Of a stretch of 64,000 bases of DNA, positions 8,278-55,656 are shown in pieces. The translations under genes and the position numbers were made by a program. The stretch covers positions 1-64,000 of the forward strand of contig JAJCZJ010000112.1 in assembly GCA_029262455.1 (NCBI GenBank), in the 5' to 3' direction. How positions within the stretch are numbered: the stretch's first letter is position 1; each line of letters starts with the position of its first letter. The notes beneath the pieces were generated by a model. That model searched no databases. It was given only the letters and a program-made list of their open reading frames with translations, and was not told the DNA's origin. This DNA is from Deltaproteobacteria bacterium (GTDB lineage Bacteria; Desulfobacterota; Binatia; HRBIN30; CADEER01).

Positions 8278-8670
8278 ATGCTTCTGAAATCACTACGACT
8301 TTCGGTGATCGCCTTTGCTGTAGCCATGTTGTCGTCGGCCGCCTGCGCCGACCATCACGCAGAAGGCGAGGCCAAGGAAAGTAAACCTGATGTCCGCCTC
8401 ACCATCGTGAACGTCATGACACCGCAGGGCGTGAAGATTTGGACGCCCGAGTCGATCTTTGCCAAAAAGGGCGACACGGTTCAGCTGCGGCTGATCAACA
8501 AGCTCGACAAAGAACACGGCTACTCGATTCACGCGTTCGGTGTCGAGAAGGTGGTCGCAGCGGAATCGGCCGAGACCGTCAACTTCACCGCCGACAAAGC
8601 CGGAATCTTCCCTATCTCCTGCCAGCTCCACCCGCCACACGTCGCGGGGCAGATCGTCGTACTCGAATAG
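8278..8670 (+). CDS. Secreted cupredoxin-domain protein
   Basis: 130 residues: a signal peptide ending near SSAACADHH (possible lipoprotein or Sec cleavage), then one beta-sandwich cupredoxin domain. The putative copper ligands are His in GYSIHAFGV and the Cys/His cluster ISCQLHPPHVAGQ near the C terminus. The usual methionine of type 1 copper sites is not obvious. The start is well supported by AATGGAGGA just upstream. A periplasmic electron carrier or copper-binding protein. The stop is two bases before the next ATG, so it is co-transcribed with a dihaem cytochrome c, a likely redox partner. Confidence 0.85.
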   Translation: MLLKSLRLSVIAFAVAMLSSAACADHHAEGEAKESKPDVRLTIVNVMTPQGVKIWTPESIFAKKGDTVQLRLINKLDKEHGYSIHAFGVEKVVAAESAETVNFTADKAGIFPISCQLHPPHVAGQIVVLE

Positions 8671-8672
8671 GC

Positions 8673-9449
8673 ATGCACTATCTCAGTGGCCTGGGGAAGC
8701 TCGCACTCGCGGGCTTCCTCTGCGCCGCGTGCAACACTCCCCCGAGTAACGGCGCCTCGCCAACGGCGGTTGCGCGACCGGCGACCGGAGCCACCGTCTA
8801 CGCAGAACACTGCGCCATCTGCCACGGCGACACCGGCAAAGGTGATGGTCCCGAGGCGAAGCGCTTCACCGCGGCACCAAGGGACTTCATCAAGGGCGAG
8901 TACCGTTTTCGCTCGACTGGCTCGGGCAAGCTACCGACCGATGACGATCTGCGCCGCAGTGTCGTGGCGGGGCTCGGCGGCACCGGAATGGTGCCGCAGA
9001 ATCACTTAAACGACACCGAGGTTGAAGCGGTCATCGACTTCATCAAGTCGATGAACCCGGGCTTCGCAGATGAGCCTCGCGCGAAAATCGTCAAGTTGCC
9101 GAAGGCCCCGGAGGTAGTCGACCTCAGTCGCGGTCGCGAAGTCTACGGCGAAGCTGGCTGCGACGGTTGCCACGGCGATACAGGCCGCGGTGACGGGCGC
9201 TCTGCCGCCGATCTATCGATCGCTCCGACCAATCTGGCCCGACATCCGCTCAAGGGAGGCTCGACGGCCGCCGACATCCTCAGAAGTGTCGTCACCGGAT
9301 TAAACGGCACCCCAATGCCCTCATACCATCTGCTGTTCGACGACGACGACATGTGGCATCTCGCCCACTACGTCGAATCGCTTGGCAGCGAGCAAGGGAT
9401 GACCGATCAGGAACGAATCGGTTGGGAGGTCGAGAAGCGAACTCCCTGA
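8673..9449 (+). CDS. Dihaem cytochrome c lipoprotein
   Basis: 258 residues with two cytochrome c domains, each with a CXXCH haem site: CAICHG with GDTGKGDGP, and CDGCHG with GDTGRGDGR. The second-domain axial Met is probably in GTPMPSYH, and the first in GTGMVPQ. The N-terminal segment LAGFLCAACN fits a signal peptide with a lipobox, suggesting a membrane-anchored periplasmic protein. It starts 2 bases after the cupredoxin stop. Relatives with this domain pair transfer electrons to or from periplasmic oxidoreductases. Confidence 0.88.
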   Translation: MHYLSGLGKLALAGFLCAACNTPPSNGASPTAVARPATGATVYAEHCAICHGDTGKGDGPEAKRFTAAPRDFIKGEYRFRSTGSGKLPTDDDLRRSVVAGLGGTGMVPQNHLNDTEVEAVIDFIKSMNPGFADEPRAKIVKLPKAPEVVDLSRGREVYGEAGCDGCHGDTGRGDGRSAADLSIAPTNLARHPLKGGSTAADILRSVVTGLNGTPMPSYHLLFDDDDMWHLAHYVESLGSEQGMTDQERIGWEVEKRTP

Positions 9450-12850: not shown

Positions 12851-14830
12851 ATGCAAATTCCGTCCAGATTCCTGCTTCTACCCGTCGTTACACTCTTGTC
12901 GACCGGTGCCGCGGCTCAGGAATGCGAAAAATCCTTTGACAGCACCTACGAGCTGATCCAAGAGGCGATCTTCGAAAACAAAGGCTGTACAGCCCAAGCC
13001 TGCCACGGCGCGGACGCAGCCGGCGGACTCGATCTGAGCGCCGACGTGTCGTACGACAACCTGATCGAGCAGGCAGCGACGACGGTCACCACGAACGACA
13101 TCCCAGGCATCAAGCGGGTTGTCCCCGGCCAGAAGGACCAAAGCCTCCTCTTCCTGAACTTGGCAGCGGGCACTCTGCCCGACCAGTGGCAGGTTCCGCT
13201 GCGCTCCATGCCGCTTGGGCTAGACCCGCTCACGACAGACGAATTGGAAGCGGTACGCTCTTGGATCGAACAAGGCGCTCCCCGAGAAGGGACAGTGCCG
13301 GGAACAGGGGAACTCTTAAACGCCTGCTTGCCACCCGCCAAGCCACTTCCGATCGTTCCACTACCGGCTCCAGATCCCGAAGTCGGCCGCCAGATTCGGA
13401 TGCCGAAATGGACCCTACCTGCAGGGAGCGAAGACGAAGTTTGCTTCGCCAGCTACTTCGACATTTCCGAAGGTATCCCCGAGAGATTCCTCTCAGAAGA
13501 CGGCGAACGATTCCGCTTCAAGAGAAGCCAGATCCGCCAAGACCCCCTGAGCCATCACCTCATTGTCACGTACTACAATGGTACGGCTGCGTTTGACGAC
13601 CCGAGCTGGGGCGCATTCAAGTGCCGCGGTGGAGACAAGGAAGGCCAGGCCTGCGCACCGACCGACCTCGAGTTTTGCGGCGAGGGACTATGTGGAAGTG
13701 AGCCGAGACGGTCCATCGCATGCATCGCCTTTGGACCACCGGATCTTCGCACGCGGGGCATTGGGTTCCCCGGCACCCAAGAAGCATCTTTTGAACAGAA
13801 CTATCCCCCGGGTGTCTACAACGAGCTCCCCACCAAGGGGCTACTAGTGTGGAATTCACACGCCTTCAACCTGACCGATGAAGACGGTGGGCTTCAAGCG
13901 TGGACGAATTTCGACTTCGCCGAACCCGAGGATCAGAAGTTTCGCGTCAGCGGGATTTTCAATAACAGCCAAATCTTCGGGATGAACACTCCCCCCTTCG
14001 AGGCAGAAGAGCTGTGCAACCACCACGTATTCCCTCCAGACACACGCCTATTCGAACTGAACTCGCACAACCACCAGCGCGGTAAACGCTTCCGCACTTT
14101 CCAGGGGCGGTACGTTTGCGACGGCGGCGCGAATGCAGGTGCGGCCTGCTCACCAATTGAGGAGACCTCTTTCGAGATTCCGGATCTTTGCGCTGGCGCG
14201 CCCTGCGTCCGGATGATTCCGCCGGAGATGGGCGACTGCAACGGTGACGGGCGGGTCGGCATCTCCGACCTCACCACCTGCGTCAACATTTCACTTGGAA
14301 CGGTGCCACTTCGTCGGTGCCAAACCGGCGACGCGAACGAGGACGGCAAGGTCACCGTGAACGAACTGGTCAGGGCGGTGAATGCTGCACTCGACGGCCC
14401 GACGATCGACGACGCAGAGGCCGAATTGCTTTACACCAATCTGGTCTACAACGATCCGACCGTTGTCAGGTACAATCCCCCGCGCGAGTACCCTGGGCTT
14501 TCGCGGAGCGCTGCCGAGCGAACCCTGACGTACTGCTCGGTCTACGACAACGGTTACACCGATCCGGACGAGGTCAAAAAGAAATCCACCTCGCCGCCAA
14601 CACCGTTCGGTGCGCTCGCCCCGGGTGGTCCCTGCCCCGAAGCGTCCGGTTGTACCGAGGGACAGGTCGGAGCGGACTGTAGTGGCGATACCGCCGCCGC
14701 CCGCGACACTTCGTGCGACACGTCGCCCGGAGCCGGCGATGGCGTTTGCGATGCATGCGTCTTACGCGGCGGTGTGACCACCGAGGATGAGATGTACATC
14801 CTGATGGGAGCCTTCTACGTCGAGCGTTAG
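12851..14830 (+). CDS. Secreted PHM-like copper monooxygenase with CX4CH domain and inserted EF-hand pair
   Basis: 659 residues. Signal peptide 1-22. Residues ~28-142 form a cytochrome-like domain with C46-x4-C51-H52, then GGLDLS, PG-x4-SLLFLNL, RSMP and SWIEQGAP. Residues ~185-659 match the copper type II ascorbate-dependent monooxygenase (PHM/DBM) core: a HH pair (235-236), H337, HXH (406/408) and a terminal methionine in EDEMYILM (648), equivalent to the CuM Met. A two-EF-hand dockerin-like module (~460-516, GDCNGDGRVGISDL and GDANEDGKVTVNELV) is inserted between the HXH site and the Met. An AAGGGGA ribosome site precedes the ATG. Paralogue at 26264. Substrate unknown; extracellular hydroxylation is inferred. 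Confidence 0.75.
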   Translation: MQIPSRFLLLPVVTLLSTGAAAQECEKSFDSTYELIQEAIFENKGCTAQACHGADAAGGLDLSADVSYDNLIEQAATTVTTNDIPGIKRVVPGQKDQSLLFLNLAAGTLPDQWQVPLRSMPLGLDPLTTDELEAVRSWIEQGAPREGTVPGTGELLNACLPPAKPLPIVPLPAPDPEVGRQIRMPKWTLPAGSEDEVCFASYFDISEGIPERFLSEDGERFRFKRSQIRQDPLSHHLIVTYYNGTAAFDDPSWGAFKCRGGDKEGQACAPTDLEFCGEGLCGSEPRRSIACIAFGPPDLRTRGIGFPGTQEASFEQNYPPGVYNELPTKGLLVWNSHAFNLTDEDGGLQAWTNFDFAEPEDQKFRVSGIFNNSQIFGMNTPPFEAEELCNHHVFPPDTRLFELNSHNHQRGKRFRTFQGRYVCDGGANAGAACSPIEETSFEIPDLCAGAPCVRMIPPEMGDCNGDGRVGISDLTTCVNISLGTVPLRRCQTGDANEDGKVTVNELVRAVNAALDGPTIDDAEAELLYTNLVYNDPTVVRYNPPREYPGLSRSAAERTLTYCSVYDNGYTDPDEVKKKSTSPPTPFGALAPGGPCPEASGCTEGQVGADCSGDTAAARDTSCDTSPGAGDGVCDACVLRGGVTTEDEMYILMGAFYVER

Positions 14831-16110: not shown

Positions 16111-18450
16111 CTAGTCGCAGGTAGGAGCGTCCAGGAAGTAGAACGTCACCTGCGTGTCCATGGCGTTGTTGTCACCCCGCACCACCCCGATGGTCCTCTC
16201 GAAGCCGGGAAGCGAGTGGGGACTCGACCCCAACGAGTCGGCAGTGAGTGAGAACGGCGTGATGGTAGCGCGCTTTTCACCGGCCGTGTCGACCAGGTCG
16301 AAGACCGCCTGATTGCTTCCGTCGGAGAGCCGCTTGGCGTAGTGAACCACCCAGTCGTTGCCGCTCGCATGAACCCGCGTCGTCCATCGGTGGTTCGACT
16401 TGTCGTCCGGACCGTGCAGCACCTTGTCGGCAATGACGCTTCCGCTGGTCGAGAGGCGATCGAAAGTCGCAAATCGAATCTGCCAGTTTGATCCGTGCTG
16501 GCGGATAGCGTTCTCGGTCCATACCGCGGCGTAGTGGCTGCCGTTGTAGGCGAGATCGGGGAACTCATCCCAGTTGTATTCTTTGCTTGGCACCACCTTG
16601 ATATGGGGGCGCATCTGTCCAGTCGGCTCCCAATACTTGGTCATGACACCACCGGTTGCGATCTTGATGTCTTTGACGCTGAGGATCGCGTTGCCCTGGC
16701 CGTCATGAGCGACACGGGGATAGAACTGGTGTGTAAGATCGAAATCCACCAGGTTGACAAAGGCCGTCTCCGCACCGGTCGGGCTGAGCTTGAAACCATA
16801 ACTACAGGAGTGCCCGACACAGTCGCCCTCGACCACCGCAACAAAGCCGTCTTCGTAGCTCTCAATGTCGCCGTCTGCCTCACTGTCCCAAATCGAGGAG
16901 TAGAGCAGCTTCGGACCAACTTTGCGTCGCGCCGAAACAGCCCCGGCCTTGGTGACGGTGTGATAGTACATCGACGACTGTTCGGCCGTCAGAACACCAA
17001 AGTGATCCTCATGCCAGGCAGCCATGTAATAGCGATTGCGCCACTGGATCTTGGGAATGCTCGCAATCAACATTGGACCATCCGACACTTCGCCGTCGGT
17101 CTTGACATGGGCGTAGTAGAGCCGGGCCACAGAGGAAAATCCCGGGTCATCGCGGAGCCAGAAAATGCCCCAGCCGTCGTCGGTGGTGACGGTGTCCGTC
17201 AGCCACAAGTTTCCGAAGGCCTGGTTGCTGATACTCACCGGCGGGGACAATTGCCAGTCGAGACCCCCAGGACATGACGGAGTCGACGTCGGACTAGCCG
17301 TCGCCGTCGGCGTGGGCGTGCGTGTAATCGTCGGCGTCTTCGTCCACGTCATCGTCCGCGTAAACGTTCGCGTCCGTGTGTTGGTTGGCGTCCGAGTAAT
17401 GGTCGGAGTGTAAGACGGCGTCTTTGTCCGCGTCGAAGTCCGTGTCCGCGTATTGCTCGGTGTATAGCTCGGCGTACGCGTCGCAGTCGGCGTGCGCGTA
17501 TGAGTGACCGTGCGGGTCGGCGTGAAGGTTCGGGTAAATGTCTTCGTTCGCGTTGCGGTCCTGGTCCGCGTGGCTGTGTGAGTCGGTGTCTCGGTCCTCG
17601 TCGGTGTGTCGGTCCTCGTCGGCGTACCAGTGCGAGTCGGCGTTCCGGTCTGAGTCGGCGTCGGAGTGTCAGTCGAGGTTGCCGTCGGCGTCGCCTCGAT
17701 GACCGTGGCAGTGGGAGTGTTCGTTTGAGTCGGAGTGTCAGTCGACGTTGCCGTCGGTGACGCCTCCACGACAGTGGCCGTCGGAGTGTTCGTCGGGATC
17801 GGATCTTCGTCGACTCCCCAACTACCCGAACAATCGCCGATCAGAATCGCCGCAAAATCCTGCGAAGGAGCATCGCCTGTCAATGGATGGTAGCCGATCC
17901 CTCCAGGCTGGCAGCTGCCACTCGACAAGCTCGGATCGGCGACGGTCTGGTTCTCCCCCGAAGAGGCCAGCGGTACGAACAGCCAATCCGAGTCACATGC
18001 CTCGGCCGCTTCAAAGCGGACCAGTGACCCGATCGCGAACCGCAAGATGTGTGCGGCATCGAGAGCCGAAACGCTACCGTCCCCGGTGACGTCACAAGCG
18101 AGGGACTCAAACGTCCCAATCTCTTTCATCCCAACGACCGCTTGCAAAACGTAGGCGGCGTCCAAAGCCGTAACCGCCTCGTCCCAGCCGCCGGACTTGC
18201 CGGGCTCGATAGTGACCGTCGCACCGGCCGAACCGGCGCCGTCGTAGAATCCCGATTTATCGCTTTCGCCGCCAACACCACCGCCGCCGACGATGGCGAC
18301 CGACACATCCGTGACCGGTTCTGCTGTGTCGTAATACATGATCTCGCCCGAAATCAACGCGGCGTGCGCCGCCGCCCCCCCAGTGATGCATGTCGCAAAC
18401 ACAAGGGCGCGCTTTAGATTCTTTGAGAACACCTTCACCACACCACCCAA
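16111..18450 (-). CDS. Secreted dockerin-type protein with Thr/Pro linker and C-terminal propeller-like domain
   Basis: Up to 779 residues. Signal peptide to ~31; a carboxypeptidase-regulatory-like strand set (~33-80); a dockerin-type pair (~93-143: [15 protein letters not shown] and [19 protein letters not shown]); and a short CDSDW..GDCSGSW module (~150-211). A 175-residue T-x-T-P/T-R-T linker spans 217-391. The C-terminal ~385 residues have repeated W/Y-rich strands ([29 protein letters not shown]) like a six- or seven-bladed propeller. The listed start is TTG; GTG codons at 18441-18432 are equally plausible. The N-terminal half is homologous to the protein at 57860. Probably cell-surface; function unknown. 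Confidence 0.8.
17278..17802 (-). repeat. Low-complexity repeat encoding the Thr/Pro/Arg linker
   Basis: This part of the dockerin protein gene consists of degenerate short repeats of the CGTCGGCGTG / GTCCGCGT kind on the + strand. They encode alternating TPT, TRT and TKT units. The repeats are imperfect and in frame, consistent with expansion of a linker rather than a mobile repeat. Confidence 0.75.
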
Positions 18451-24444: not shown

Positions 24445-25113
24445 CTAGGGGTTGTTGGCGCCGCCGTTTACCCACTCTCGAATCGTACTAATTTCCTGAT
24501 CGGTTAGAGAACCGATCAGCGGCATCCGACTGCCAAAGATCGGCGGCGGGTTCGAAGCGGTCTTGACCACCAGAAAACTATTCGTCGCGTCGCCGGGATC
24601 GACGCGCAGAATCCCATCCTCAGCAGCTGCGCCATTCGCCGGCGCTACCCCGACGAGCTCATCGAAAGACTCACCTTCCGCAAGCGAGAGATCCCCCGAC
24701 GCGAACTGCCCAACGTGACAACCGGGAATCGCGCACTTGTCGGTCAAGATCGCCTGCACCTCTGAAAACGCCACGGTGTCGACCGGCGTCTGCGTCGGCG
24801 TTGCGGTCGGAGCCTCTGTGTCAACCTCGGTTGGAGTTCTTGTTGGAGTTTCGAACCCACAGCCGTTCAAACTCGAATTGACAGCCGCGACCAGCTCGTT
24901 GATCGCGACGGCACCATTATTGTTCACGTCCATCGCCGGACAGGAATCTCGCAAGGCGCGACCGAGCAAAATGTTCACACCGGTCACCAACTCGTTGACT
25001 GCAACCACGTCGTTGCCATTACAATCACCTGGACAGCTCTGGGCAGCCAGGTGCGATCCGGACACGCCGATCAAAATCGCCGCAACCACCAAGACTCGAA
25101 AAACTTGCATCAT
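24445..25113 (-). CDS. Secreted EF-hand pair plus CX4CH cytochrome-like domain protein
   Basis: 222 residues. Signal peptide 1-25; a dockerin-like EF-hand pair (~27-86: CPGDCNGNDVVAVNELV and MDVNNNGAVAINELV); a short Thr/Pro linker (90-113); and a domain with C127-x4-C132-H133, then GDLSLAEG, DPG-x4-SFLVVK, SRMP and IREWVNGGA. This second domain matches the N-terminal domain of the two copper monooxygenase-like proteins at 12851 and 26264. GAGGAAAGGG upstream supports the ATGATG start. It could be a small extracellular electron-transfer or scaffold partner of those enzymes. Haem binding by CX4CH is not proven. Confidence 0.8.
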   Translation of the reverse strand: MMQVFRVLVVAAILIGVSGSHLAAQSCPGDCNGNDVVAVNELVTGVNILLGRALRDSCPAMDVNNNGAVAINELVAAVNSSLNGCGFETPTRTPTEVDTEAPTATPTQTPVDTVAFSEVQAILTDKCAIPGCHVGQFASGDLSLAEGESFDELVGVAPANGAAAEDGILRVDPGDATNSFLVVKTASNPPPIFGSRMPLIGSLTDQEISTIREWVNGGANNP

Positions 25114-26263: not shown

Positions 26264-28240
26264 ATGTCACCCATGAAACGACATTCCCTCGCGGTCGCGG
26301 TCGCAACCATCGGCCTGTTGTGCTTTGCGCAACCGGGCGCATTCGCAATGTGCGTTGGAGATTGCAACAGCGACGGTGAGGTTTCGGTCAGCGAGTTGAT
26401 GGTCGGGGTCAATATCACCCTGGGAACTATGCGCACGACAATGTGCTCAAATCTCGACGTCGGCGGCGACGAGAGAGTAACCGTCAACGAGATGGTCCAA
26501 GCCGTGCGAGCGGCGCTCGACGGCTGCCCGATCAACTTGCAGGCAAAAACTTTTCGGTCGGTGCAACAGATCTTCGACCAAAGCTGTGCGTTCAGCACCT
26601 GCCACTCGGCGATCGCACGCAAGGGCGGCTTAGTCCTCGCGTCCGAGGAGGTCTCGTACGCGAGCCTCGTCGATGTAGTCCCCGACCATCCAGACGCCCT
26701 CGCCGATGGCCTGATGAGAGTGGACTCCAGCAATCCTGAGAACAGCTTTCTACTTCGCAAGCTGCGCCACATGGGTCCCGGTGGCCCGATGCCGGAAGGC
26801 GGCGTGATGCTGTCCGAAGAGATCATCCAGGTCATCGAAGACTGGATCGCCCGCGGTGCCCACGAGACCCTCGAAGAGTGCGCCGCACTGGGTGAGGAAG
26901 AAGGATTCGAAGGTAGCGGGGCTCACGGTGGCGACGTGCAAACGGTCTGCGACTCCGAGCCCATCGAGCCAGGAGACTTCGTCTGGAAGCCGCAACCCGC
27001 CCTCGCAGTACCCGCTCCGAACGAGGGGATTCAGCTCTACGTCCCACCGAAAGACGTGGACTCCGGTGAGGAGTGGGAGACTTGCGTCGCTTTCAAGGTC
27101 GACTGGAGAGAGGCCGGTCGCAATGTCGGCATCAACGGCAGTCCAACCATCAAGTGGCAGGAATACCGGATGCACGACGGCAGCCATCACCTCTTGGTCT
27201 ACTCGTACTTCGGTGAGCACACCGATTGGGAATGGCCGGAAGGGCACTTCCCGTGTTCGGCCGGAAATTGCATCAACCCCGGCATCTGCACCGACGGAAC
27301 CTGCAGCTCCGGCAAGGTGGGCAATTCGTGTAGTGACGATACCGACTGTCGGGAGTGCCCGCCTGATGGCCGAAGCATCCTGCCAATCGGCGGCACGCAG
27401 GTCGCTGGCACCCGCTACCAAGTCTTCTACCCTGAGGGCGTTGGCATTCCTGTTCTGAACCCCCAAGCGGTGATTATCGCGAACCTGCATTACACCAATC
27501 CGTTCCAACCAGCCCAAGACATCGTCGCGGAGGCTTGGTTGAACTTCTATTTCCACCAACCCGGAGAGTTCAAAGCACTACTCGACGGAGTCTTCGCAAT
27601 CGGCTTCAACGATCTGTTCGTCGAGCCATTCGAGACACGCCGCATGAGCACCATCTGGCAGCCTAGAGGAATCATCACCGGACGAGACGACGCTTCGCTG
27701 TTCCAGCTCTTCGGACACATGCACAAACGGGGAACTTTGTTCCAAATCGACCTCATCAACGGCGGGTCGTGCTCCGAGGACGGAGACCTTTGCGCCACCG
27801 ATGCCGATTGTCGATGTCGCAACGCCGACCGCAACTGCGTCCCAGGTCAGGTCTGCGTAACCGGAGCGGATCTCGAGGATACGACGATCTACAAGACGAA
27901 CTCTTGGGACAACGCCCCTGTGGTCGACTACCCCGCCCCCTACCTGAGTGTTCCGAGAGACGCTGGACTGCGTTGGACCTGTGAGCACATCAACGGCGTC
28001 GAGGGAGACCCGAATTACCCGCCGAAGGTTTGCCACGAAGGCTGCGAGTCGTGCGGCTGGGAGGCCGACAATCGAACCTGCGTCTTTCGACGCGGTGTCC
28101 AACTCGGATTCCACGACGAGGCGCGCGTCTACCAAGAAGGTGAGCCGATCCCGTTGGTATTCGGAGAGCTCGCCGACGATGACATGTGCAACATGTTCGG
28201 CTACTTCATCCCGACCAGACTTCTCGATCGGTTGCCGTAA
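26264..28240 (+). CDS. Secreted PHM-like copper monooxygenase with N-terminal EF-hand pair and CX4CH domain
   Basis: 658 residues. Signal peptide to ~28; an EF-hand pair (~30-88: CVGDCNSDGEVSVSELM and GDERVTVNEMV); a cytochrome-like domain with C108-x4-C113-H114, RKGGLVLAS, NPENSFLLRKL, PMPEGG and IEDWIARGA; then a PHM-type copper core. Copper ligands: HH 308-309 (DGSHHLLVY), H409 (NLHYTNP), HXH 485/487 (FGHMHKRG) and Met in DDDMCNMFGYF (641), nearly the textbook CuM motif. Cysteine-rich inserts occur at 331-365 and 503-531. GTGGAGGAGCC precedes ATG 26264. Paralogue of 12851, with modules in a different order. Predicted extracellular hydroxylase; substrate unknown. Confidence 0.8.
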   Translation: MSPMKRHSLAVAVATIGLLCFAQPGAFAMCVGDCNSDGEVSVSELMVGVNITLGTMRTTMCSNLDVGGDERVTVNEMVQAVRAALDGCPINLQAKTFRSVQQIFDQSCAFSTCHSAIARKGGLVLASEEVSYASLVDVVPDHPDALADGLMRVDSSNPENSFLLRKLRHMGPGGPMPEGGVMLSEEIIQVIEDWIARGAHETLEECAALGEEEGFEGSGAHGGDVQTVCDSEPIEPGDFVWKPQPALAVPAPNEGIQLYVPPKDVDSGEEWETCVAFKVDWREAGRNVGINGSPTIKWQEYRMHDGSHHLLVYSYFGEHTDWEWPEGHFPCSAGNCINPGICTDGTCSSGKVGNSCSDDTDCRECPPDGRSILPIGGTQVAGTRYQVFYPEGVGIPVLNPQAVIIANLHYTNPFQPAQDIVAEAWLNFYFHQPGEFKALLDGVFAIGFNDLFVEPFETRRMSTIWQPRGIITGRDDASLFQLFGHMHKRGTLFQIDLINGGSCSEDGDLCATDADCRCRNADRNCVPGQVCVTGADLEDTTIYKTNSWDNAPVVDYPAPYLSVPRDAGLRWTCEHINGVEGDPNYPPKVCHEGCESCGWEADNRTCVFRRGVQLGFHDEARVYQEGEPIPLVFGELADDDMCNMFGYFIPTRLLDRLP

Positions 28241-28347: not shown

Positions 28348-30513
28348 TTAGCCCTGGCAACCATCCAGTGCCGCACGAACCGCGAGCACCAACTCCGCGA
28401 CCGCAACCCGTCCGTCTGCATTGCGATCAAAGATCTCGCAACCTTCCGACACAGGCAAACCAAGAGCTTGGCGCACGCCGAGCGTCAACTCATGGACCTC
28501 GGGACGACCATCGAAGTTACAGTCGCCCGGGCACGCGATGGCTAGAGCCACCACCCCACCAAAGGTCCCGGACAAGCCGTAGCCGCTATAGGCAACCCCG
28601 TCGACAATCGCGGAACCACCTCGGATCGGTGCCGGCATCTCGAACCGCTTCAGGATGCGCCCGTCGGAAGCGTCGACCGCGTAGTAGGCACCGGGTCCGC
28701 ATTCCACTCCCTCTTCGCCGCAGTCGGGCCTGCAAGTTCCATTGCTTCCACAATCGCCGACAAACATGACGCCGTTCGCGACAGTGGTATCGCTCCAGGT
28801 CCGCTCGAAGTCCTGTGTCCAAGCGGTCATACCATCAGTGACCCGAAAGGCCTGCAGGTGAGCCGGCCCAACGGTCGGTGAAACGTCGTGGAGGCCAGCA
28901 TAGATGTGGCCCGACGAGTAGGCAATCGCGCCGTTGAAGAGGCCCCATGCCGCCAAGCCGGGAGAGACAGGAACTGGAACGACTTCGTTGGTCCAGACGT
29001 GTTCTCCGGTGTCGGAGTCCAACGCATACAGCGACCCATCCTTGCTACCCGAGACGACCAGTGACCGCCCGATTCCCGCCTCCCCCTCGGCGATATACAG
29101 CGGGCCGTTGAGAAATCCGAAATCGTGGAATACCCCCTTGCTGCGACATCCGCCGGCAGGGCAATCATCATCATCGCGACATTCGGTGTTGTTTTCCTCG
29201 CGACAAAATCCAAACTGTTCGGGCGGACGCACCCGGTTTTTCCAACGCAACTCCCCGGTCGCCGCTACAAACGACAGGATGGAGTCGGAGTCTCCGATCG
29301 AGGGAAATGTAAGACAGCCCACCGTATTCGCGAAGACGATTTCGCCGGTGGGATCCACCGAGGGCTGCGCCGTAATTCCCGCGCCCTCAGCGACGAGACA
29401 CTCCCCGCCACCCGGGCAGTCGCTCGACTCGTTGCAAATGACGCTGGTATCCGTTCGGCAGATCTTCTCCGGCGTCGTGATAAAGCGCCAAAGGACTTCA
29501 CCCGTATCCAGGTCGGCGGCGACGAGCTGTCCGTCAAAAGCGCACGGAGAGTCCGTCTTCGACGCCAACCCGACGAACACTCGGTTGTTGGCGACCCTAG
29601 CAGCTCCCCACATTTCCATCTGAGCGTTGTCGGTGAGCAGCGTCGACCAAAGCAAAGTGCCATCCCGCGCGTCGAGACACTCTAGGGTTTGATCTGCCGT
29701 GATCAGGACACGCCCATCCGCCGTCAGCGTCGGACTCCCTTCGAGACCGAGGAAATTGGCCGCTTCGTTCGCGTACTCCCAAACCACATCACCTGTCGCC
29801 TGGTCGAGAGCGTAGATTCGCCGATTCCAAGAAGTGAAGTAGACCATACCGTTGCCAACCGCCGGTGTCGAAGTCACCGACTTCAACCCGGCCCCGGCGA
29901 GGTCAAATCGCCACTTGATGCCCAGCGCACCGACGTTGCTGACATCGATCGACTCTTCCATGGGATTCGACCGATGGTTCGCGTAGCTGAAACCATGCGT
30001 CGGCCAGCCATGCGGAACGCATGTAAAAATCACTTGGTCCGCGTCCGTCACATCTCCGCTTGTCGTCGCCGACACTGCAACCGTAACCGAGGCAACTTCC
30101 CTTCCAAGGTTGACGATCTCGGTCTGGCCGTCGGTGCAAGCCGTCTCGGTCGCCGGCAAGATCCCGGCAAGCGCAGTCCCCAGGCTTTCTAGAGAGCTGC
30201 TGGCAGCCGAGATGTCTTGCGGGACACACTCCGGTAGATCCGGGTCCGCGTTGCGGAGGCAGACATCCACGTCGAAGGTGCACTGGCCATTCACCTCGCC
30301 GTCGAGGTCGCAACCGGCATCGCCGTCAAAGCAGCGCACTTCTGTGCGCGCCTCCGGAGCGCGCGGATTGAACGGAGGATAGTTGAGTTTCATTCGCGTG
30401 CTGGCAAACTCCACATGACAATCAGTCTCCGGAGATCCTCCACCCGGCAGGGGCAGACTCCAGGCTGTCGCTGCGCTAAGAGTCACACAAGCAATGAGAA
30501 TGGTACGTATCAT
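28348..30513 (-). CDS. Secreted PQQ-like beta-propeller protein with C-terminal EF-hand pair
   Basis: 721 residues. Signal peptide (MIRTILIACVTLSAATAW). An N-terminal cysteine-containing domain (~25-185) is followed by a PQQ-enzyme-type propeller (~190-640) with repeats such as IYALDQATGDVVWEY, LECLDARDGTLLWS, LVAADLDTGEVLWRF and LYALDSDTGEHVWTN. A vicinal-disulphide PQQ dehydrogenase active site is not obvious, so catalysis is doubtful. Cysteine-rich loops (CNESSDCPGGGEC) interrupt blades. The C terminus is a dockerin-like EF-hand pair (CPGDCNFDGRPEVHEL and FDRNADGRVAVAELV). AAGGAGGA precedes ATG 30513. Confidence 0.85.
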   Translation of the reverse strand: MIRTILIACVTLSAATAWSLPLPGGGSPETDCHVEFASTRMKLNYPPFNPRAPEARTEVRCFDGDAGCDLDGEVNGQCTFDVDVCLRNADPDLPECVPQDISAASSSLESLGTALAGILPATETACTDGQTEIVNLGREVASVTVAVSATTSGDVTDADQVIFTCVPHGWPTHGFSYANHRSNPMEESIDVSNVGALGIKWRFDLAGAGLKSVTSTPAVGNGMVYFTSWNRRIYALDQATGDVVWEYANEAANFLGLEGSPTLTADGRVLITADQTLECLDARDGTLLWSTLLTDNAQMEMWGAARVANNRVFVGLASKTDSPCAFDGQLVAADLDTGEVLWRFITTPEKICRTDTSVICNESSDCPGGGECLVAEGAGITAQPSVDPTGEIVFANTVGCLTFPSIGDSDSILSFVAATGELRWKNRVRPPEQFGFCREENNTECRDDDDCPAGGCRSKGVFHDFGFLNGPLYIAEGEAGIGRSLVVSGSKDGSLYALDSDTGEHVWTNEVVPVPVSPGLAAWGLFNGAIAYSSGHIYAGLHDVSPTVGPAHLQAFRVTDGMTAWTQDFERTWSDTTVANGVMFVGDCGSNGTCRPDCGEEGVECGPGAYYAVDASDGRILKRFEMPAPIRGGSAIVDGVAYSGYGLSGTFGGVVALAIACPGDCNFDGRPEVHELTLGVRQALGLPVSEGCEIFDRNADGRVAVAELVLAVRAALDGCQG

Positions 30514-53865: not shown

Positions 53866-55656
53866 CTACTGGACGCGGATGACAATGCTCACGGCTTCGC
53901 CGAGTTGTCCGGCGATATTCGCGATCCGCACCGTGAGCACGGTATCCCCCGGGGGAAAGGCGATCTCCGTTCCGACACCCGGCGACGAACAGAATTGAAT
54001 TTGACTGGTCGACTCGACGAAGGATGAGACCGCCGTAAAGTCTCGGGTACAAGCATCACCGTCGTTGCCACGCGGCGTGAATCGACAGCCCATGTCATTG
54101 AGCGCGGCCGCCGCTGGTGCACCGAACTCAATCGGAACGACAGCAGGCACGCCACCCAACAGGCCCGCACTGCCATCATCGCATACAATGGTACTGCCAT
54201 TGCCGAGCGGCCGGCTCGCAACCAGTCGGAAGTCAGGCAGGCCGTTCGGCACGAAGGTCTGCGACCCTACGCGAAGAAAATCCGGACCACGTCGCGCCTC
54301 GGCGACCAGAAGAAACCCGCTGCCTAGTGGCCGATCGTAGATCGAGAACCCCTGGGGACTGGTGCCGATCGGATCAGTGACGATACCGTCGGCGCGGGCA
54401 ACCCCCAAGTAGGTCACCACCGCGCCTGAGCCCTCTACTGTGGGGGTCGGGGTCGCAGTCGGCGCTGGCGGCGACGTAGGGGTGCGGGTTCGTGTCGAGG
54501 TCCGCGTAAACGACGGTGTTCGCGTGTTCGTTGGCGTGCGGGTCGAGGTGTGCGTCCGTGTCGCCGTCGGTGTGCCGACAAACGTCCGGGTGCGCGTCGG
54601 GGTACGGGTTCGCGTGTTCGTGCGAGTGCCCGAAGGAGTTCGCGTCGACGTCTGCGTACGGGTCCCAGTGGGAGTCCGGGTTACCGTTGGAGTTCGCGTC
54701 TCAGTCCGCGTGCGCGTAAATGTCCGCGTCCTCGTGGAAGTGCGAGTGCCGGTCTCCGTGCGCGTACTCGTCGGCGTCCGCGTACCGGTCCGGGTACGCG
54801 TGCTGCTCGGGACCCGCGTCTCCGTCCGTGTCCGGGTAAACGTACGGGTCCGGGTATTCGTTCTCGTGTGAGAGGGGGTGCGCGTGATCGTCGGCGTACG
54901 TGTACCAGTGACCGTCCGGGTGCTCGTCGGCGTGCGCGTCCCGCCATTGGTCGTACGCGTGGCGGTCCAAGTCCGCGTTCGTGGCGGAGTCCGGGTCACC
55001 GAAGGCGTGCGTGTGAACGTGCGCGTCCGTGTACGAGTCCCTGTGCGGGTGAATGTCCGAGTCCTCGTAGGAGTCCGCGTAATCGTCGGCGTCCTGGTCG
55101 GGCTCGGCGACCGCGTATTCGTTCCCGTGCGAGTCGCCGTCGGCGTACGAGTGGGGGGCGACGAGGGAGTATCGGTAGCCGCCGGGGTCAGGGAATCGAT
55201 GAGCGTCCAAGTGGGAGTCGACGTCGGCGTCGGAGAATCCAACAACCCACCGGTAGGGGTCGACGTCGGCGTCGGAGAATCCACCAACCCCGCTGTCGGG
55301 GTCGGCGTCGGGGTCGGCGTCGACGTCGGAGTATCCACCAACCCGGCTGTCGGGGTGGGCGTCGGCGTCACGACATCCCCAACACAACCCTGTAGCAAGT
55401 TGCGAACCCCTTGGACCAGTTCGTTGATCTGGATTCGAACGTCGCCGTTGGCGTCCATCGCCGGGCAGTCAGCGGTCGAGCCTGTTCCGATCAGCGCCCC
55501 CACCCCGAGAATCAGCTCATTGATACTGACGCGCCGATCGGAGTTACAGTCGCCAACGCAGGCAATCGCTGGACCCTGCGCCCAAGAAACGCCCTGGTGA
55601 AACATCGCGGCCACCAACACTGCCGCCAGGAATATCATTCTCCGCATCGCACCCAT
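53866..55656 (-). CDS. Secreted dockerin-like protein with very long Thr/Arg linker
   Basis: 596 residues. Signal peptide (1-27); EF-hand pair (~33-91: CVGDCNSDRRVSINEL and MDANGDVRIQINELV); a ~310-residue linker (96-408) made almost wholly of TPT, TRT, TRTFTRT and TGTRT units; and a C-terminal domain (~409-596) with GFLLVAEARRGP, ASRPLGNG, GGVPA, CRFTPRGN, ACTRDF and FPPGDTVLTVRI. The C-terminal domain is shared with the protein at 57860. The linker is strongly basic and probably O-glycosylated or surface-extended. The start could be ATG 55656 or 55647. Confidence 0.85.
   Translation of the reverse strand: MGAMRRMIFLAAVLVAAMFHQGVSWAQGPAIACVGDCNSDRRVSINELILGVGALIGTGSTADCPAMDANGDVRIQINELVQGVRNLLQGCVGDVVTPTPTPTAGLVDTPTSTPTPTPTPTAGLVDSPTPTSTPTGGLLDSPTPTSTPTWTLIDSLTPAATDTPSSPPTRTPTATRTGTNTRSPSPTRTPTITRTPTRTRTFTRTGTRTRTRTFTRTPSVTRTPPRTRTWTATRTTNGGTRTPTSTRTVTGTRTPTITRTPSHTRTNTRTRTFTRTRTETRVPSSTRTRTGTRTPTSTRTETGTRTSTRTRTFTRTRTETRTPTVTRTPTGTRTQTSTRTPSGTRTNTRTRTPTRTRTFVGTPTATRTHTSTRTPTNTRTPSFTRTSTRTRTPTSPPAPTATPTPTVEGSGAVVTYLGVARADGIVTDPIGTSPQGFSIYDRPLGSGFLLVAEARRGPDFLRVGSQTFVPNGLPDFRLVASRPLGNGSTIVCDDGSAGLLGGVPAVVPIEFGAPAAAALNDMGCRFTPRGNDGDACTRDFTAVSSFVESTSQIQFCSSPGVGTEIAFPPGDTVLTVRIANIAGQLGEAVSIVIRVQ
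54433..55371 (-). repeat. Low-complexity repeat encoding the Thr/Arg linker
   Basis: About 940 bases of degenerate, in-frame, short repeats on the coding strand (ACxCGxAC-type codons). They encode TRT, TPT and TFTRT units. The antisense frames are open for the same reason and encode GVRVRV-type artefacts, not genes. Confidence 0.8.

Follow-up and report, generated by a model that had tools for sequence, protein, structure and literature searches.

The gene at positions 12851-14830 (+) of the window, by which is meant the whole stretch of 64,000 nucleotides analysed here (contig JAJCZJ010000112.1 of a Deltaproteobacteria bacterium, class Binatia), encodes a protein termed P0001, in which a dockerin-like cassette lies inside a copper domain of the PHM/DBH fold. 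P0001 is tentatively read as a dicopper monooxygenase-like enzyme fused to a cytochrome-like domain, whose cassette would dock to cohesin partners and in which calcium would fold the module, a reading to which a probability of about 0.48 is assigned. The open reading frame is intact, starting with ATG and coding for 659 residues, with the stop codon included in the coordinates. The residues named in a preliminary description of this DNA (H235, H236, H337, H406, H408, M648 and C46-X4-C51-H52), as well as its two EF loops (D462-D473 and D494-E505), were all confirmed at these positions. The gene is divided into the following parts.

12851..14830 (+): whole gene, 659-residue PHM-fold copper monooxygenase-like protein P0001 (AlphaFold pLDDT 90.9, pTM 0.86)
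12851..12922 (+): N end, signal peptide-like, residues 1-24 (by eye; pLDDT below 50 at residues 1-19)
12923..13321 (+): cytochrome-c-like domain, about residues 25-157, with C46-X4-C51-H52 and M120 (PSCyt1 matches)
13349..14098 (+): first stretch of the PHM-fold region, residues 167-416, with CuH-type H235, H236 and H337 and CuM-type H406 and H408 (conservation, superposition, profile alignment)
14099..14230 (+): Cys-rich lead of the inserted cassette, residues 417-460 (counterpart loop in the module-less L012, L074 and L076)
14231..14398 (+): dockerin-like EF-hand pair, residues 461-516, loops 462-473 and 494-505 (PF00404; VIA match to 6kgc_B)
14423..14827 (+): strand 525-530 and the remaining C-terminal region, residues 525-659, with M648 (model strands; M648 invariant)

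The copper and cytochrome-like domains

The AlphaFold model of P0001 was computed with the 80-row alignment A2, which is composed of P0001 and 79 of the 80 listed stretches, L102 being left out. In VIA superpositions, the model matched PHM 5wja_D with Z 12.9 (rmsd 3.4, 265 residues aligned, 14% identity) and DBH 4zel_A with Z 10.9 (279 residues aligned). PHM or DBH took rows 1-26 among the 50 matches listed, and once these and the dockerins matching the module were set aside, no row of the 50 reached Z 7; matches to viral capsids and other jelly rolls, at Z below 8, were dismissed as reflecting a common arrangement. The first 28 Foldseek rows were likewise DBH or PHM (E 6.3e-9 to 5.5e-5), with low TM-scores of at most 0.32 by query length and 0.53 by target length. 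Direct Pfam, NCBIfam and PDB sequence searches gave nothing convincing for the copper domain, and viral protease matches at E 0.85 were dismissed as chance. Neither Cu2_monooxygen (PF01082) nor Cu2_monoox_C (PF03712) matched any of the 13 own-genome paralogues at E <= 1, and the protein is therefore filed as PHM-like and not as a PHM/DBH member.

Conservation of the proposed ligands is nearly complete. The six copper-ligand positions are kept in all 109 rows of a wider set, from which 7 partial matches and duplicates (among them L073, a copy of L025 from the order-mate G009) had been dropped, the sole gap being M648 of L102, the C end of which is cut off. The four residues of the cytochrome-like motif (C46, C51, H52 and M120) are invariant in the rows of this set that cover the N-terminal part, so that all ten copper- and haem-motif residues are found in every row except L102 and L055, whose N end is cut off. 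The same ten are invariant in the 13 own-genome paralogues and in 80 of the 80 rows of A2. Since the loci from L049 onwards were chosen by patterns containing H235/H236 or H337, these histidines are partly conserved there by selection; in the rows chosen without such patterns, all ten residues are kept in 38 of 38.

The gap between P0001 and the known enzymes is bridged by a second bacterial copper family, which was detected by PF03712 in 7 of 38 genomes and was not found in the window's own genome. Six of the nine PF03712 matches, all from the same class (L131-L134, L136 and L138), were assembled into the alignment A5, whose rows are recognised by PF03712 in 6 of 6 cases. A profile alignment of A2 with A5 covered 362 columns, the cytochrome-like domain included, with a probability of 99.9 and E 1.1e-31, and brought the HH pair, the third His and the HXH motif into register; it stops at residue 567, before M648, and the Met is matched by a DEM motif only. 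The A5 profile in turn found PHM chains with a best E of 2.1e-6. All six A5 rows keep HH, H and HXH and have the CuM Met replaced by His (NEHCN), and no dockerin-like module was seen in these six proteins. Taken together, superposition, ligand conservation and the profile bridge through A5 bear out the PHM-type fold and ligand set that had been proposed from the sequence of P0001.

The N-terminal domain carries an invariant CX4CH motif, which is found in some cytochromes. As this differs from the CXXCH haem motif, the domain is called cytochrome-like and is not counted as a c-type cytochrome member. Among 21 N-domains tested, of which 20 belong to the P0001 family and one to A5, PSCyt1 matched 16 at E <= 0.5, with a best value of 2.3e-4; for the domain of P0001 itself, E was 0.024 and the score 15.7 of 22 bits, below the curated cut-off, and with this qualification the cytochrome-like domain in cis of the preliminary description is upheld. 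Moreover, CTI matched 13 of the 21, while the NCBIfam dihaem cytochrome model TIGR03806 (best 2.7e-4) and an NCBIfam lipoprotein model matched 5 each, the window's own domain being among the latter five. A PDB profile search with the N-domain returned only a weak FoxE match (E 0.016), and in P0001 itself residues 115-147 resembled CTI weakly. As judged from its sequence, a haem in this domain would be a plausible electron donor in cis.

In the window, the gene at 8439-9449 (+) encodes a cytochrome c in which two stretches were matched, and past the next genes from it lies a protein with a dockerin-like repeat, recognised by eye, at 16111-18450 (-). L049, the nearest relative in the scan, is flanked by look-alike open reading frames, and its cytochrome lies about 110-180 bp upstream.

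The cassette, its site and its history

The module of the P0001 model superposes on seven dockerin chains in VIA; the best, 6kgc_B, gave Z 7.1 with 57 residues aligned (459-516) at 2.7 A, and six more chains gave Z 6.6-5.5, values to be read with the caution that the module is small and that Z below 8 alone can reflect a common arrangement. Dockerin_1 (PF00404) was found at residues 461-503 of P0001 with 22.9 bits against a cut-off of 22.9, beside weak matches to EF-hand models, and at E <= 1 in 5 of the 13 own-genome paralogues. In 41 of the 42 module rows, both calcium loops hold ligand-type residues, defined as D/N/E at position 1, D/N/S at 3 and 5 and D/E/N at 12; the exception is the second loop of L052.

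The two-EF-hand module does lie between the CuM HXH and the CuM Met in the primary sequence, as originally described. In PHM, the Met is also far downstream of HXH across the same hairpin, and a place in between in sequence need therefore not be a place in between in space. The cassette spans residues 417-524, starting about 8 residues past H408 at a strand end, and is bounded by the model strands 411-418 and 525-530, which are presumably paired. In the model of the module-less L085, which keeps the strand order of P0001 and matches PHM with Z 16.1 (rmsd 3.4, 253 aligned), the corresponding strands 393-399 and 405-409 are only five residues apart, and the cassette is accordingly read as replacing the tip of the hairpin after the HXH strand. 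In the lineage of P0001, this tip would have been exchanged for a cassette that begins with a loop rich in cysteines and continues with a dockerin-like domain folded by calcium. The catalytic fold would close over the cassette, and M648 would still reach the CuM histidines.

Among the 109 rows, 42 have the module at this site, 7 have a loop of 31-41 residues and 60 have a shorter one, which measures 6-9 residues in 57 rows and 18-23 in three; a short turn is hence present in 57 of the 67 module-less rows. L012, L074 and L076 hold a 41-residue Cys-rich loop with the module absent, and the short forms have no Cys-rich loop. In the own genome, 11 of the 13 paralogues carry the module, L012 and L013 being the two without it, and the module-less relatives, these two included, keep every ligand.

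All 42 module rows come from one order of Candidatus Binatia, and the window is accordingly assigned, with some likelihood, to the HRBin30 order of Binatota, which is named in PMC8262859. Relatives at E <= 1e-20 were detected in 23 of the 39 genomes searched, the own genome included. The match runs through the module in the own genome and in 9 of 14 others of the order. Outside the order, none of the 24 genomes searched gave such a match, and 11 of them match without the module. The module rows from named records belong to bins whose sequences recur in genomes of order-mates; genes of the P0001 family also occur in two records titled Klebsiella pneumoniae (L081 and L120), which probably represent a mislabelled metagenome bin. 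When the flanking open reading frames of 78 loci were clustered, no neighbour family other than the P0001 family recurred at more than 5 of them; the members of the second-largest cluster (30 open reading frames at 26 loci) seem, judging from their sequence, to be antisense frames of the gene.

In a tree of the 109-row set built without the insert columns, 40 module rows and the three Cys-loop rows formed one starred group. The remaining two module rows, L011 from the own genome and L072, were placed among the short forms, and this placement was starred in the whole trees. In each of four gene-part trees, the nearest rows to L011 and L072, after each other, were module-less, and the wider group around them was starred in two of the four. 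A single origin of the module was rejected, as one clade of all module rows failed the AU test (p 2.2e-5), which was run on 43 rows picked by hand from the 109, comprising 20 of the 42 module rows and 23 of the 67 others; long branches may still pull on the placement of L011 and L072. The cassette has probably arrived at this point on two or more occasions, either through new insertions or through transfer from one paralogue to another, and besides this repeated gain losses may have occurred elsewhere in the tree. L012, L074 and L076 fall within the main module clade, where they may have lost the module or may represent intermediate forms. With regard to a possible transfer of the cassette, the Cys-rich lead of L011 shares 57.5% identity with the lead of L007, compared with a mean of 44% for the other module forms, but the L011 module is nearest to that of L069.

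Cohesin partners and the role of the module

Outside the copper family, the module was matched at no fewer than 119 further places in the own genome; this number, which is left of 140 matches once 15 belonging to the copper family and 6 to the N-domain alone are taken off, is a lower bound, with 150 of 179 candidates scored. When every second further place was inspected (60 of 119), 28 modules were C-terminal, lying no more than 30 residues from the C end, 19 were N-terminal, lying no more than 125 residues from the N end, and 13 were internal. Of the 13 internal ones, 7 were followed by a cohesin-like domain and a CxGCxCx end, as assessed by eye. L149, L150, L151, L155 and others of the own genome end in this order of module, cohesin-like domain and CxGCxCx. 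Ten of the 13 genome matches of CxGCxCx lie at the ends of open reading frames, but as a C-terminal signal the pattern did not rise above its control, the reversed pattern giving 10 matches. Further module copies were noted in the window at 24856-25029 (-), 26351-26533 (+), 28360-28530 (-) and 55360-55557 (-), and the open reading frame holding the first of them also contains a CX4CH motif. The idea of a dockerin expansion confined to the order was dropped after PF00404 counts in 18 hand-picked genomes, in which G017, from outside the order, had 16 matches against 5-8 in three order-mates tested.

At E <= 0.01, the Pfam Cohesin model matched 15 of 15 genomes of the order, passing its cut-off in 14 of these, as well as 4 of 23 other genomes of the class, passing it in 2. 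Matches to this model also turned up in 2 of 14 control genomes, in one of them over the cut-off. Lipoprotein-like proteins that combine a stalk rich in P/T with 2-4 cohesins are encoded by order-mates, and a simple pattern found a lipobox-like word in 6 of the 7 regions with cohesin open reading frames. With a home-made cohesin profile derived from a G009 protein, such frames were found in 7 of 10 regions, and in 6 of these 7, G012 being the exception, a module open reading frame directly adjoined; the regions had been chosen for cohesin lipoproteins, three of them after the module neighbour had already been seen, and the six cases are not independent since G009/G011 and G006/G008 are close kin. 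The adjoining pairs are located at L218, L219, L220, L222, L223 and L224. A G004 lipoprotein with a weak Pfam cohesin match (E 0.0015) has a module open reading frame beside it as well, and in a second G013 region neither a cohesin nor a module open reading frame was found by profile.

In the own genome, Cohesin matched 10 places at E <= 1, of which 4 were over the cut-off, and the cohesin-like domains that were read lie mostly in proteins with a module of their own. The own-genome lipoprotein locus showed neither cohesin nor module by profile, and for both reasons any partner of the enzyme in the own genome is only putative. At this locus a C-terminal domain continues directly from the lipoprotein-like N region and its stalk, a fusion that was recognised by eye in two genus-mates too (L226 with L217 in the own genome, contig C75, and L215 and L216). 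The C-terminal domain of the fusion recurs in the module protein beside the G004 lipoprotein, with 44% identity over 344 residues (E 7e-64, the stalk partly included), and in a module-less G004 open reading frame, with 40% over 300 residues. By its sequence, the fusion resembles what would be expected if a fusion had replaced a cohesin-dockerin link.

On the docking reading, the module would serve to attach the enzyme, like many other own-genome proteins, to cohesin-bearing partners, and calcium would fold the module with no gating of the copper site. Secretion, loading with copper and haem, catalytic activity, electron delivery from the haem in cis and binding to cohesins would be expected of such a protein. 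What counts against docking is the unusual position of the module, since a docking domain would hardly be expected in the interior of a catalytic domain. A serious though less probable alternative is that the insert is stabilised by calcium and has no specific partner, being a dispersed domain that settled in a tolerant hairpin tip, where it would act as spacer or stabiliser. Its many architectures at the 119 further matches, the variable length of the loop at the insert site and the purely putative nature of any own-genome partner would suit such an insert, as would the lower conservation of the module relative to the enzyme body in the main module clade (mean identity 45% vs 55%, 780 pairs); yet calcium-loop residues kept in all but one module, cohesin lipoprotein-like genes adjoining module genes in order-mates and a cassette at the same point in two lineages are more readily understood if the module docks.

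A bolder extension of the docking reading, which is rather doubtful, holds that this Binatia order possesses a calcium-dependent, non-cellulosomal cohesin-dockerin surface assembly, that a large family of haem-fused PHM-type copper oxygenases would be among its cargo, and that in two lineages the catalytic domain would have received the docking domain between CuM ligands, so that docking might be mechanically coupled to the copper site.

It is also unlikely that the PHM-like domain is a copper electron-transfer, storage or sensor protein and not a monooxygenase, a proposal compatible with either role of the module. The low identity of the PHM superposition and the variation of the site within the group, exemplified by the His of A5, could be taken in its favour, but the ligand positions do not vary across the 109 rows, one cut-off end apart, and the fused cytochrome-like domain could supply electrons for catalysis.

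Least probable by a wide margin is the calcium gate of the preliminary description, in which the copper site would open or close as the EF-hand pair binds calcium: the module does separate the CuM ligands in sequence, and PHM has open and closed forms that differ by a hinge rotation of about 18 degrees, according to PMC6123673, but the module is a generic, removable dockerin-like domain of the own genome that no observation made here connects with the copper cleft, the cassette starts only beyond H408 at a strand end, module-less relatives with a short turn there keep all ligands and, in the modelled L085, the fold, and order-mates encode multi-cohesin proteins.

Comparison with known systems

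The matched PHM and DBH enzymes with solved structures are from rat and human, and the present family constitutes a large bacterial branch with 13 members in a genome. Its module-bearing and module-less paralogues, which differ at one site, offer a natural experiment in which a domain has been inserted beside a metal site and the ligands retained. Meanwhile, the cohesin lipoprotein-like genes of order-mates render the docking idea directly testable in a phylum represented mainly by uncultured genomes. Among open-licence papers, screened by titles and the starts of abstracts, none dealt with a P0001-type protein or with dockerins in Binatota.

P0001 shares with PHM (1phm, 5wja, 6ala) and DBH (4zel) the fold and the ligand order HH...H and HXH...M. 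It differs from them in being bacterial, in its fused CX4CH cytochrome-like domain and many conserved cysteines, in the dockerin-like cassette after HXH and in having no match to the PHM/DBH Pfam models. The A5 proteins are homologous to the P0001 family across the cytochrome-like and copper regions, whereas they have His in place of the CuM Met, show no module in the six rows and are seen by PF03712. To type I dockerins (6kgc_B, 2ccl_B, 4fl4_G; PF00404) the module is akin in its two calcium loops, spaced 32 residues apart, and in superpositions at Z 5.5-7.1 over 57-60 residues; unlike them, it sits inside a catalytic domain and keeps C463 in 26 of 27 rows and C490 in 26 of 26 rows that have a letter there. 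In PMC9012536, ANME archaea are described as holding non-cellulosomal dockerin and cohesin sets, the presence of which alone leaves their meaning unclear. The Binatia proteins resemble these sets in combining dockerins with multi-cohesin proteins outside cellulose degradation, and differ from them in their host class and in having copper enzymes among the carriers of the module.
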